From positions 30,404 through 94,403 of the forward strand of contig CAIOLO010000010.1 of the NCBI GenBank assembly GCA_903859155.1: a stretch of DNA of 64,000 bases, given 5' to 3'. The stretch comes from an uncultured beta proteobacterium. GTDB lineage: Bacteria; Pseudomonadota; Gammaproteobacteria; Burkholderiales; SG8-39. Every line of letters starts with the position of its first letter. Positions within the stretch are counted from its first letter, which is position 1. The position numbers were made by a program, and so were the translations under genes. The notes under the pieces were generated by a model. It did not search any database. It had not been told where the DNA came from and saw only the letters and a list, made by a program, of their open reading frames with translations. Shown here in pieces: positions 2,899-55,889 of the stretch.

Positions 2899-5800
2899 AC
2901 GTCTCATCGTGGTCGATCCGCAATCCGGTGCCGGCGCTGATGGTGTTCGTGCTGCTCAGCTTCGGCGGACTGCTGTCGTTCAACGCGATGAAGGTCCAGC
3001 ACTTTCCCGACCTTGACCTGCCCACCATCACGGTGAGCGCCTCGTTACCCGGAGCGTCCCCGTCGCAACTGGAAAATGATGTCGCGCGCAAGATCGAAAA
3101 CTCGATCGCCACACTGCAGGGCGTCAAGCACATCTACACCAAGGTGCAGGATGGCGGGGTCACCATCACCACCGAGTTCCGCCTGGAAAAGCCGGTGCAG
3201 GAGGCGCTCGATGAAGTGCGCTCCGCGATATCGCGCGTGCGCGCCGACCTGCCCGCGGACATGCGCGATCCGATCGCCGCCAAACTGGACCTGGCCGGGC
3301 AGCCGGTGCTCGCCTACACCATTTCCTCCACGGACATGGATGACGAGGCGCTGTCCTGGTTTGTAGACAACACGGTGACGCGCACGCTGCTCTCGGTGCG
3401 CGGGGTGGGTGCGGTCAGCCGAGTCGGCGGGGTGACCCGCGAGATGAGCATCGTTCTCGACCCGGCGAAGCTGCAGGCGCTTGGATCGACCGCCGCAGAC
3501 GTATCGCGGCGACTGCGCCTCATACAACAGGAAAGTTCCGGCGGCCGCACCGACCTGGCCGGTGGCGAGCAGCCAGTGCGCACCCTGGGGACGGTGCACA
3601 CCGCCGCCGAACTCGGAGCAATCGAACTCTCGCTCTCCGACGGCCGGCGCATCCGCCTTGACCAGATCGCAACCGTCAGCGACACGGTGGCTGAGCGCCG
3701 CTCGGCGGCTCTCCTCGATGGCAAGCCGGTGGTGGGCTTCGAAGTGTCGCGCAGCCGCGGCGCGAGCGAGGTCGAAGTCGGCAAAGGCGTGCGCGAGACA
3801 CTCGGACGCCTGAAGCAGAATCATCACGACATAGCCCTGACGGAAGCGTTCGACTTTGCCACGCCGATAGATGTGGAATACCACGGCTCCCTGTCGCTGC
3901 TGTATGAGGGCGCTATTCTGGCGGTGATGGTGGTCTGGCTGTTTCTGCGCGACTGGCGCGCGACGTTTGTTTCAGCGGTGGCATTGCCGCTGTCGGTGAT
4001 CCCTGCCTTCATCGGCATGTACCTGCTGGGCTTCTCGGTGAATGTGGTGACGCTGCTGGCCTTGTCGCTGGTGGTGGGCATACTGGTGGACGACGCGATT
4101 GTCGAGGTGGAGAACATCGTGCGCCACCTGCGCATGGGAAAAACACCCTATCAGGCGGCCATGGAAGCGGCCGACGAGATCGGCCTGGCGGTGATCGCCA
4201 CCACCTTCACGCTGATCGCCGTGTTTCTGCCCACCGCTTTCATGAGCGGCATAGCCGGCAAGTTCTTCAATCAATTTGGCTGGACCGCGTCGCTCGCGGT
4301 ATTTGCTTCGCTACTGGTGGCGCGCATGCTCACGCCGATGATGGCCGCCTACATGCTCAAAGCCATCGGCGCCGCAGGCGAAGAAGGCAGGGTGATGAAG
4401 GCTTATATGCGCCTTGCGGCATGGTGCCTGAACCATCGCTTTGCGACCGTGCTTGCAGCGGCGGCATTTTTTGTCGGATCGGTCATGCTCATACCCCTGT
4501 TGCCCACCGGGTTCATGCCACCTGACGATATGTCCCAGACCCAGGTGCATGTGGAGCTTGCGCCGGGTGCGACATTGGCGCAGACAGAGGCGGCGGCCGA
4601 GCATGCCCGGGTACTGGTATCCAAGGTCGAGTATGTGAGAAACATCTACACCACCATCGGCGGCGGCGCGGCCGGTGCCGACCCGTTCGCGCCCAAAGGC
4701 CTTGCCGAAGTTCGCAAGGCGACGCTCACCATCCAATTGGACAATCGCGGCGAGCGCAAGGTCCGCAAACAGGTGATCGAACAGCATTTGCGAGAGGTGC
4801 TTACGGCATTGCCGGGTGTTCGCATCAAGGTGGGTCTGGGTGCCTCGGGCGAGAAATACGTAATGGTGCTCAGCGGTGATGAACCGGCGGCGCTGGCCGA
4901 AGCGGCGCTGGCCGTGGAAAAAGATCTGCGCACCATCCCGGGCCTGGGCAGCATCGCCTCCAGTGCGGCGCTGGTGCGGCCGGAACTTGCGGTGCGACCC
5001 GATTTCGCCCGTGCCGCTGATCTGGGCGTGACCACCGCCGCCATCGGCGAGACGCTGCGCATTGCCACCATCGGCGACTACGATGTGTCCCTGCCAAAAA
5101 TCAATCTGGCCGAACGCCAGGTACCGGTGGTGGTGCGCCTGCCTGCCAGTGCGCGCCGCGATCTGGCAGTGCTGGAGCGCCTGGCGGTACCCGGGTCACG
5201 CCCGGGCGCGCCGCCGGTGATGCTCGGCCAGGTTGCCACTCTGGAACTCTCCAGCGGCCCGGCGGTGATCGACCGCTACGACCGCTCCCGCAACGTGAAC
5301 TTCGAGATCGAACTATCGGGGCAACAGCTTGGCGAGGTGAGCGCGGCAGCCGAGAAACTGCCCAGCCTGCAAAACCTGCCGCACGGCGTGCGCCAGACCA
5401 ATCTCGGCGACGCGGAGGTGATGGGCGAACTGTTCGCCAGTTTCGGTCTCGCGATGCTAACCGGCGTGCTGTGCATTTTCATCGTGCTGGTGCTGTTGTT
5501 CAAAGACGTGCTGCAACCGGTGACCATTCTTGCGGCGCTGCCGCTGTCGCTCGGCGGCGCATTCATCGCCCTCTTGGCCGCGGGCAAGAGTTTTTCCATG
5601 CCGTCGCTGATCGGCCTGATCATGCTGATGGGGATCGCCACCAAAAATTCGATTCTGCTGGTGGAGTACGCGGTGATGGCAAGGCGTGAACATGGCATGT
5701 CGCGCCTCGAAGCGCTGCTGGACGCCTGTAACAAACGTGCCCGGCCGATAGTGATGACCACCATAGCCATGGGCGCGGGCATGCTGCCGATTGCACTGGG

Positions 5801-51243: not shown

Positions 51244-51514
51244 TACCTTGCTTGATCGAGGCAGCGACAAAGAATAAAAAAATCGACTTAACGTTTCATC
51301 CGACAAATATTGGTCGGCGGGTGCGCTATTGGTGCGAGCAAAAGCGCTTTATCGGTCTTGCATTGTCGGGATGTTGCGACAATGCAACAGACTGCATCCT
51401 TTAAGTGTCACTCAGGTCGTCCATCCTCAATAGCAACATACAATCGATCCGCTAACGGAACATGTGCCGATGCAGTATGCGAGGAGTCGACCTAGTTGTG
51501 TAGAGGCCGTATAG

Positions 51515-51529
51515 GCACCAGATAGGTGC
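51515..51529. promoter_or_regulatory. Putative NtrC-binding site 1 (TorF porin)
   Basis: GCAC-CAGATAG-GTGC (GCAC-N7-GTGC). Confidence 0.6.
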
Positions 51530-51544
51530 CTGAAAACCTGAGGC

Positions 51545-51559
51545 GCACAATAGATGTGC
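51545..51559. promoter_or_regulatory. Putative NtrC-binding site 2 (TorF porin)
   Basis: GCAC-AATAGAT-GTGC, centre 30 bp from site 1. Confidence 0.6.
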
Positions 51560-51622
51560 ATCCGTACCCTGTTCTTCCCGCCGTGATTGACAACTTCTCT
51601 AGCGAGGAGCGGATTTATTGGC

Positions 51623-51638
51623 AGGCACGGGACTTGCT
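51623..51638 (+). promoter_or_regulatory. Putative sigma-54 promoter of the TorF-family porin
   Basis: AGGCAC-GGGAC-TTGCT versus TGGCAC-N5-TTGCW; 50 bp upstream of the ATG. Confidence 0.7.
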
Positions 51639-51687
51639 CAAGCATCTAACTGTCGGATTTTCACAAATGATCAAAGAGAGGAATTCT

Positions 51688-52587
51688 ATGCGTAAGCTCA
51701 TTCTCGGTACTGCTGTTGCAGCAGCTTTTACCGCACCTGTGGCTGTTTCTACCGCCCACGCCCAAGCAGCGGCTGCATCTCCCATTACATATAACGTCGG
51801 AGTCGTTTCCGATTACCTGTTCCGCGGAATCAGCCAGACTCATGGTCGCGCGGCCCTTCAAGGGGGGATTGATTATGCTCACGAAAGCGGTTTTTATCTG
51901 GGAGCATGGGCGTCACAGATTACCTGGGTAAAGGACTTGTATAGCAGCGGTCGTACCGAGGTCGACCTCTACGGCGGTTACAAAAATGCATTTGGTGGTG
52001 GCGACTGGAACTACGACGTTGGTTACATAACCTATAACTATCCCGGTAGTGGTAACGCGATAACGACGAATCTTGTTACTGGTGTTGGCGGTGCCGCTAA
52101 GCCGAATACCCAGGAAGCCTATGGCGCAATCGGATACAAGTGGGTGACTGCAAAGTACTCATACGCGACATCATCTAACTTCATCGGCTGGCAAGGCGGA
52201 CCGAACCTTAATCAGAAAACGCGGGGCTCGGATTATCTGGAACTGAACGCCAACTACGATCTGGGTGATGGCTGGACCTTGATCGGTCACATGGGGCAGC
52301 AGAAAGTCAAGGGTTCGGTAACGACTGTCGCGGCGTTGGGCGGATTCCAATCGGCTTCTTACAAAGATTGGAAGATTGGGATCAGTAAGGATATAGGCTT
52401 CGGAGTTGTTACGTTAGCTTATTCCGATACCAATGCTGCCGGGCAATGTTCCTCAAACAGCGCAACCAACACAAACCCATATTGCTGGGGTAACAGCGGT
52501 AACGTGAATGGGGTTTCTGGTCCGACCAGTGGCTTTAAGGATGCGAGCAGGGGAACCGCTGTTCTTTCTTTTCTCAAAACCTTTTAA
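51688..52587 (+). CDS. TorF family putative porin (TIGR02001-like outer-membrane protein)
   Basis: Signal peptide ending AHAQA; YNVGVVSDYLFRGISQTHGRAALQGGIDYAHESGFYLGAWAS. Confidence 0.9.
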   Translation: MRKLILGTAVAAAFTAPVAVSTAHAQAAAASPITYNVGVVSDYLFRGISQTHGRAALQGGIDYAHESGFYLGAWASQITWVKDLYSSGRTEVDLYGGYKNAFGGGDWNYDVGYITYNYPGSGNAITTNLVTGVGGAAKPNTQEAYGAIGYKWVTAKYSYATSSNFIGWQGGPNLNQKTRGSDYLELNANYDLGDGWTLIGHMGQQKVKGSVTTVAALGGFQSASYKDWKIGISKDIGFGVVTLAYSDTNAAGQCSSNSATNTNPYCWGNSGNVNGVSGPTSGFKDASRGTAVLSFLKTF

Positions 52588-52602: not shown

Positions 52603-52632
52603 AAAAAAAGCCGCCTGATAGGCGGCTTTTTT
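52603..52632. terminator. Bidirectional intrinsic terminator between porin and dienelactone hydrolase
   Basis: AAAAAAGCCGCC-TGATA-GGCGGCTTTTTT between convergent genes. Confidence 0.9.
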
Positions 52633-52672
52633 ATTGACGCGCCCAACCGGGCACGTCTGATTGCAGAACAAT

Positions 52673-53552: not shown

Positions 53553-53681
53553 TTCACCGCGTTCGTCGCCCCCGTGTCGATGAACAACGTGCCCGCGGCA
53601 ATGGAGGAAATGGACCGGGCCATCGAAAAGCTCGGAACCGAGGCTCTTGACCAGCCTGACGCTGATTTCTTCGTCGAATAG
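53553..53681 (+). pseudogene. Remnant of an amidohydrolase (ACMSD-like) gene
   Basis: Frame reads FTAFVAPVSMNNVPAAMEEMDRAIEKLGTEALDQPDADFFVE-stop, like an internal ACMSD-family segment, with no complete ORF around it. Confidence 0.4.
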
Positions 53682-53757: not shown

Positions 53758-55254
53758 TTACATGTGGTACGCGGACTCGCCGTGGGAGTTGATGTCCAGG
53801 CCTTCGCGTTCTTCTTCTTCGGTTACGCGCAGTCCGACCAGCAGGTCAGCAATCTTGTAGCTGATGAACGCCACCACTGCCGACCAGACCACGGTTACGC
53901 CCACCGCCTTGGCCTGTATCCACACCTGGGAGCTGATCGAGTAGTCGGCGGGTTTGATGACTGAAGCCGTTACCCAATCCGAAACGAAGCCCGGTCCGCC
54001 CAGCGAAGGATCACAGAACACGCCGGTCAGCAACGCACCCAGAATCCCGCCCAAGGCGTGCACGCCGAACACGTCCAGACTGTCGTCGGCACCGAGCATG
54101 CGCTTCAGACCGTTGACGCCCCAAAGGCATACCAGGCCCGCGGCAAGTCCGATCACAAATGCGCCGGGGATACCGACGTTGCCCGCTGCGGGTGTTATCG
54201 CAACCAGACCGGCTACCGCGCCGGAGGCAGCACCGAGCATAGAGGGCTTGCCCTTGAATATCCACTCACCAAAAATCCAGGAGAGCACCGCGCAGGCGGT
54301 GGCAAGGAAGGTGTTCATGAAGGCAAGACCCGCCGTGTTGTTGGCTTCGAGCGCCGAACCGGCATTGAAACCAAACCAGCCGAACCACAGCAGTGAGGCG
54401 CCAATCATGGTCATCGTCAGGCTGTGCGGCGACATGGATTCCTTGCCGAAACCGAGCCGCTTGCCGAATACATAGGCACCCACGATACCGGCGATACCGG
54501 CGTTGATGTGAACCACCGTGCCGCCCGCGAAATCCAGGGCTCCCCACTGCCACAAGAGGCCGGCTTTGCCGTTGATTTCGTCAACCAGCTTCGGATCGGT
54601 ATAAGCATCAGGGCCGGCCCAGAACCAGACCATGTGAGCGATCGGCGCATAGGCAAACGTGAACCACAGCACCATGAAAATCAACACAGCGGAGAACTTG
54701 GCGCGCTCGGCGAAGGCGCCGAGAATCAGGCAGCAGGTAATGGCCGCAAACGTGGCCTGGAAGGCGACGAACACAATTTCCGGCAACGGCGTGGCCTTGC
54801 TGAAGGTCGCGGCCATGGCGAACTCGCCCTTCATGGAATCGAATATTCCACTCAGGAACAACCGGTCGAAGCTGCCTATGTACGCATTGCCCTCGGTAAA
54901 GGCGAGGCTGTACCCGTAGACGCACCACAGCACAGTGATCAGCGAGAACACCACCATGACCTGCATCAGCATGGACAGCATGTTCTTCGATCGAACCATG
55001 CCGCCATAGAACAGTGCGAGCCCTGGAAGGCTCATCAGCAGCACCAGCGCGGTCGAAGTCAGCATCCAGGATACGTCGCCCTTGTTGGGGGTCGGCGCGG
55101 GTTTTGCCTCGGCGGCTGGGGCGGCCTCAGGTGCGGCCGGGGCCGCGGCGGCTACCGGAGCTTCCGCCGCCTTCTCCGCCTTGTCTTGTGCGATGACCGG
55201 GGTATTCAGAAAAACCGCCCCGGCTAGGGCCAGCAGTGCCAATAATTTTTTCAT
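53758..55254 (-). CDS. amt: Ammonium transporter
   Basis: Signal peptide plus Ala/Pro-rich linker, then DVSWMLTSTALVLLMSLPGLALFYGGMVRSKN; FAGGTVVHINAGIAG. Confidence 0.96.
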   Translation of the reverse strand: MKKLLALLALAGAVFLNTPVIAQDKAEKAAEAPVAAAAPAAPEAAPAAEAKPAPTPNKGDVSWMLTSTALVLLMSLPGLALFYGGMVRSKNMLSMLMQVMVVFSLITVLWCVYGYSLAFTEGNAYIGSFDRLFLSGIFDSMKGEFAMAATFSKATPLPEIVFVAFQATFAAITCCLILGAFAERAKFSAVLIFMVLWFTFAYAPIAHMVWFWAGPDAYTDPKLVDEINGKAGLLWQWGALDFAGGTVVHINAGIAGIVGAYVFGKRLGFGKESMSPHSLTMTMIGASLLWFGWFGFNAGSALEANNTAGLAFMNTFLATACAVLSWIFGEWIFKGKPSMLGAASGAVAGLVAITPAAGNVGIPGAFVIGLAAGLVCLWGVNGLKRMLGADDSLDVFGVHALGGILGALLTGVFCDPSLGGPGFVSDWVTASVIKPADYSISSQVWIQAKAVGVTVVWSAVVAFISYKIADLLVGLRVTEEEEREGLDINSHGESAYHM

Positions 55255-55265
55255 GACGGTTATCC

Positions 55266-55634
<369 letters not shown>

Positions 55635-55764
55635 TTACAGGATTCTTGCTGGCTGAAAATATTGGTCAAACGGCGCGAGGTCTCTAGACTGCGGCGGCAA
55701 CGCGCTGGCAAAAGCAGCTTTCCAATGACTGACTCCTAAATTGGTGTAGATGCGAAGGGGAGAT

Positions 55765-55780
55765 CGCATAATATGTGCCA
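55765..55780 (-). promoter_or_regulatory. Putative sigma-54 promoter of glnK-amt
   Basis: Minus strand TGGCAC-ATATT-ATGCG; -24 GG and -12 GC in register. Confidence 0.6.
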
Positions 55781-55872
55781 GAACATAACTGCTGCATTTT
55801 CAATTAGTTACTATGTGAATACAGGGGGGAGGAGAATGTCGCGCACCGGGCTGTGGCACGCAATCCATGCTC

Positions 55873-55889
55873 TGCACCACAAACGTGCA
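55873..55889. promoter_or_regulatory. Putative NtrC-binding site upstream of glnK
   Basis: TGCAC-CACAAAC-GTGCA; a degenerate partner GCAC-N7-TGGC lies at 55843-55857. Confidence 0.55.

Follow-up and report, generated by a model that had tools for sequence, protein, structure and literature searches.

Introduction

At glnAp2 of enteric bacteria, a sigma-54 promoter is preceded by tandem NtrC dyads. These are spaced by about three helical turns and are located roughly 100-140 bp ahead of the transcription start. In Herbaspirillum seropedicae, the nlmA(orf1)-glnK-amtB genes are NtrC-dependent and induced by nitrogen limitation, amtB::lacZ expression being 21-fold higher, and the authors placed NlmA probably in the periplasm and called its function unknown (PMC3023670). 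In Paraburkholderia phymatum, the P-II/amtB genes have a sigma-54 box upstream and amtB is RpoN-dependent (PMC5979394), and an ntrC mutant of Burkholderia cenocepacia has lower transcripts of one P-II gene and of several porins (PMC5491218). No functional paper linking the TorF family (Gcw_chp, TIGR02001) to nitrogen was found in the literature searched. Here we describe a TorF-family porin gene and its upstream region, located within a window of 64 kb (the whole stretch of DNA that was analysed).

Results

The porin gene and its predicted promoter

The porin scores above the curated cut-offs for TorF-family membership with both TIGR02001 and PF09694 (Table 1) and is the sole TIGR02001 protein of the genome. 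A GTG-start open reading frame from 51526 was rejected as an extension artefact, the porin starting at the ATG at 51688. The gene is found about 4 kb from glnK, between the dienelactone hydrolase (DLH) and methyltransferase genes; DLH, amt and glnK lie on the opposite strand and run towards it. With this convergent orientation and its own terminator the porin gene does not belong to one operon with glnK-amtB and is probably transcribed as a single-gene unit. The terminator is absent from the list given by a consensus scan, probably because the stem rule of that scan takes in the T run. A remnant of an amidohydrolase gene lies between amt and DLH (53560-53645); the gene is far longer in three congeners.

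Table 1. Coordinates of the features at the porin and glnK-amt loci (positions in the window)
Feature	Position	Strand	Remarks
NtrC-type dyad 1 (GCACC-AGATA-GGTGC)	51515..51529		centre 51522, about -127 from the inferred start
NtrC-type dyad 2 (GCAC-AATAGAT-GTGC)	51545..51559		centre 51552, about -97 from the inferred start
Predicted sigma-54 promoter -24/-12, AGGCACGGGACTTGCT (AGGCAC-GGGAC-TTGCT)	51623..51638	+	GG-N10-GC
TorF-family porin, 299 aa	51688..52587	+	TIGR02001 169.7 bits (cut-off 47.15); PF09694 177.1 bits (cut-off 24)
Predicted intrinsic terminator	52606..52637	+	fold -21.5 kcal/mol, z -5.6, T run
amt, ammonium transporter	53758..55254	-	TIGR00836 440.6 bits, above cut-off
glnK (P-II)	55266..55604	-	NF007946 189 bits, above cut-off
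Putative scar of lost operon porin (ribosome-binding site and first codons)	55695..55738	-	between the glnK promoter and glnK
Predicted sigma-54 promoter before glnK, CTGGCACATATTATGCG	55765..55781	-	dyad-to-GG distance 94 bp, equal to that of dyad 1 at the porin
NtrC-type dyad before glnK (TGCAC-N7-GTGCA on the - strand)	55874..55888		matrix and pattern scans

The initial annotation had proposed that this porin is driven by a complete NtrC/sigma-54 promoter and is therefore nitrogen-regulated, and had called for a matrix scan and for a comparison of the upstream region in homologues. Direct reading confirmed the letters, the positions, the 30-bp spacing of the dyads and the sigma-54 site. Both dyads (GCACCAGATAGGTGC, dyad 1; GCACAATAGATGTGC, dyad 2) are of the GCAC-N7-GTGC type, with centres 30 bp apart. 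The sigma-54 site (AGGCACGGGACTTGC) has TGGCAC/TTGC-like boxes with the GG-N10-GC arrangement, the GG being at 51624-51625 and the GC at 51636-51637, 49 bp ahead of the porin ATG; that it begins with AGGCAC and not TGGCAC counts against the promoter reading. The matrix scan gave dyad 1 a score of 9.0 of 10 and the sigma-54 site 16.5 bits, values that are approximate because the NtrC and sigma-54 matrices were written from general knowledge. From the -12 GC, transcription would start near 51648. Dyad 1 lies 94 bp and dyad 2 about 63 bp from the GG of the sigma-54 site, so that the tandem dyads stand at enhancer distance upstream of it. No sigma-70 promoter was found near the porin. We infer from this arrangement that the region upstream of the porin has promoter activity.

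Chance occurrence and genome-wide distribution of the composite site

Three dyads are present in the window, two at the porin and one before glnK, where 1.9 would be expected anywhere, and the GGCAC-N5-TTGC site occurs twice for 1.2 expected. Because these counts sit near expectation, neither element is significant alone. The combination of dyads and sigma-54 site, unlike the single elements, is non-random: in 200 shuffles of the 260 bp upstream of the porin, the scores of dyad 1, of the best dyad, of the dyad pair and of the sigma-54 site were never reached.

A composite pattern (a dyad ahead of GGCA-N7-TGC) was then searched in the 5.26-Mb genome. It gave seven matches at spacings of 80-110 bp and three at 50-80 bp, and none with the reversed control pattern. 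These matches represent nine distinct places, three within coding sequence and six before genes, namely glnA (followed by ntrB and ntrC), glnK-amt, urtA-urtB (urea), the TorF-family porin, a CP_ATPgrasp_2/Alpha-E operon (circularly permuted ATP-grasp; G000:C29, L046) and an apparently exported YqgE/AlgH-like gene with a sigma-54-like site (G000:C156, L048). A class-wide search found the composite site to be widespread and added nothing specific.

The proposed control hinged on the presence of rpoN and ntrC. It holds on this point since the genome encodes NtrC (676 bits) and RpoN (460 bits), both above the cut-offs, as well as NtrB, with the gene order glnA-ntrB-ntrC. As at least eight further long NtrC-like proteins are encoded, the dyads and the sigma-54 site might instead be the target of a different sigma-54 activator, such as NifA or NtrX. 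We consider this very improbable: the dyad fits the consensus for NtrC and is found again ahead of glnA, glnK and urtA, and no NifA site (TGT-N10-ACA) was found near the porin promoter.

Conservation of the promoter in relatives

The upstream region was compared in two sets of loci, which overlap in part. The first set comprised 29 loci from relatives (L007-L035). The upstream DNA was long enough for scoring in 28 of them, and a sigma-54 site was present upstream of the porin in all of these except L017. In these 27 loci, a dyad pair 30-32 bp apart nearly always accompanies the sigma-54 site, and the distance from the second dyad to the GG is 62-65 bp in 22 of them, the others having 56 bp (three loci), 78 bp and 141 bp.

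The second set consisted of 80 named betaproteobacterial loci picked by similarity of the porin, not by promoter. The porin directly precedes glnK in 76 of them, with amt also present in 73, and ubiK is divergently upstream in 61. Sigma-54 scores of at least 11.5 were obtained for 73 of the 80 loci versus 7 of 357 control stretches, taken at random from the same loci, and dyad pairs 28-34 bp apart with a score of at least 14.5 for 72 loci versus two controls. Both elements were found together in 67 loci and in a single control. The same promoter would drive a torF-glnK-amt operon in most betaproteobacteria examined. Rhodocyclus gracilis and Parazoarcus communis are among the cultured relatives that retain it.

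Some loci depart from this arrangement. In L040 (G088), L052 (G427) and L063, whose porins are related to that of the window, about 172 bp separate the dyad pair from the GG of the sigma-54 site, versus 63 bp in the window. In G427 and L063, porin and glnK are divergent and the dyads may serve both genes. One in-frame TGA interrupts the porin frame of L008/L040 (G088), which points to a pseudogene or a sequence error. L105 carries at 3854-4786 a TorF porin with the full promoter and no glnK-amt nearby, a Porin_4 gene being located about 1.5 kb upstream.

Taken together, the presence of ntrBC and rpoN, the sister composite sites, the conserved and nearly fixed geometry and the nlmA-glnK-amtB precedent support the predicted NtrC/sigma-54 promoter of the porin.

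Loss and probable replacement of the operon porin

The congener comparison (REARRANGEMENT) covered three further genomes of this genus (G001-G003). There, yifB-ubiK is divergent from porin-glnK-amt, followed by the amidohydrolase, DLH and methyltransferase genes, so that the porin forms one unit with glnK-amt. In the window, no porin is found between ubiK and glnK, and the promoter of the operon porin now precedes glnK. Between this promoter and glnK, a short segment matches the porin start of the congener G002 (80% over 46 columns, E=4e-5, blastn), as a scar of the lost gene would.

The porin of the window would then be either a newcomer or the native operon gene shifted by a local inversion. 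Its distance of just about 4 kb from glnK and the inverted porins beside glnK in G427 and L063 speak for an inversion. We nevertheless regard an inversion as improbable, as the congener porins are only about 36% identical to that of the window whereas identities of 70-96% are found for GlnK, Amt, YifB, DLH and the methyltransferase, the scar resembles the porin of the congeners, and the tree strongly separates the window porin from theirs, placing it with the porins of G008, G088, L063 and G427 (99/94) in a clade that excludes the congeners. The simplest reading is that the operon porin was lost and a distant TorF porin gained, probably by horizontal transfer, the donor and the direction being suggested by the tree.

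In its core sigma-54 region, the window promoter has 16 of 17 bases in common with that of G088, which suggests that promoter and porin gene moved together. Homology with the promoters of the relatives' detached copies is confined to the sigma-54 site and its immediate surroundings, about 17 bp, and the alignment of the dyads does not extend beyond the motifs, so that a joint move can be put forward only tentatively.

Structure and possible substrate of the porin

The AlphaFold model of the porin is a 12-stranded barrel (pLDDT 80, pTM 0.82). A signal peptide was recognised by inspection of the N-terminus only, and the protein ends with an aromatic residue, F299. No sequence similarity to PDB chains was found. 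The best target-normalised structural matches in the PDB include the 12-stranded NanC and KdgM (TM-scores 0.68-0.73), two channels that take acidic sugars.

Charged strand residues shared by at least 98% of 44 relatives were assigned to one or the other side of the barrel wall from hydrophobicity alternation and not from coordinates; those placed towards the lumen are D62, E91, D93, D110, E143, D227 and D235 versus K156 and H201. The seven acidic residues would suit a cation-friendly pore. Among the mature proteins, net charge varies around neutral, so bulk charge gives no evidence of selectivity.

The initial annotation had further suggested that the porin serves as an outer-membrane route for ammonium. 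The evidence is consistent with this hypothesis, mainly through the linkage to glnK-amt and in addition through the barrel fold and the acidic residues, and we infer that the pore may admit ammonium or small amines. A nitrogen-regulated porin could instead pass nitrogen compounds different from ammonium (urea, amines, amino acids or oligopeptides) or act as a general permeability factor. This stands at slightly below an even chance: the sequence reveals no substrate, some detached copies lie far from amt (L105, G088) and several other porins are under NtrC in Burkholderia cenocepacia (PMC5491218), whereas the adjacency to glnK-amt in the second set of loci favours ammonium over association with urea or amino-acid transporters. 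The interpretation first advanced is therefore upheld in part, NtrC/sigma-54 control being supported and the ammonium route being consistent with the data.

Discussion

It is very likely that a working NtrC-activated, sigma-54-dependent promoter turns on a TorF-family barrel when nitrogen is scarce, in a genome where the operon porin was deleted and a distant TorF porin was gained. NtrC-phosphate would form oligomers on the tandem dyads and contact sigma-54 polymerase, about 64 bp downstream, by looping, and the porin would be switched on in step with glnK-amt and glnA. Deletion of the operon porin would have left its own promoter in front of glnK, while the acquired TorF porin, about 4 kb away, would carry an NtrC/sigma-54 promoter of its own.

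Nitrogen regulation of the porin is well supported and largely known in kind, given the conserved promoter and the NtrC-dependent Herbaspirillum operon. The porin promoter mostly extends a known regulon and is conserved across betaproteobacteria. Less expected is that the porin appears to have been replaced while the nitrogen promoter was retained.

A more specific proposal would be that in betaproteobacteria a dedicated, nitrogen-controlled and cation-preferring 12-stranded channel of the TorF/NlmA type feeds Amt at low ammonium and that the porin was swapped between lineages together with its NtrC/sigma-54 promoter. We offer it tentatively and think it rather unlikely in this full form. If the porin was swapped with its promoter, the regulatory link would outlive replacement of the protein, and the swap suggests selection for keeping this link. 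From its conserved position ahead of glnK-amt and behind an NtrC/sigma-54 promoter, a testable role can be proposed for TorF, that of an outer-membrane component of ammonium scavenging. If this is true, outer-membrane permeability would belong to the core response of betaproteobacteria to nitrogen starvation.

Comparison with known systems

The tandem dyads and sigma-54 site have the same layout as at glnAp2 of enteric bacteria, which drives glutamine synthetase, whereas here a porin lies downstream. NanC and KdgM have the same number of strands as the window porin, but they are acidic-sugar channels whereas the window porin has conserved acidic residues on its presumed lumen side. By its gene position, the sole link between the two, NlmA should be a TorF protein; a primer-derived pattern for the Herbaspirillum glnK locus gave no match. 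NlmA was considered probably periplasmic, whereas TorF is predicted here to be an outer-membrane barrel. As in H. seropedicae nlmA-glnK-amtB, where the genes are NtrC-dependent, a membrane protein gene directly precedes glnK-amtB in the operon form seen in the congeners; that single operon contrasts with the two separately promoted units predicted in the window.
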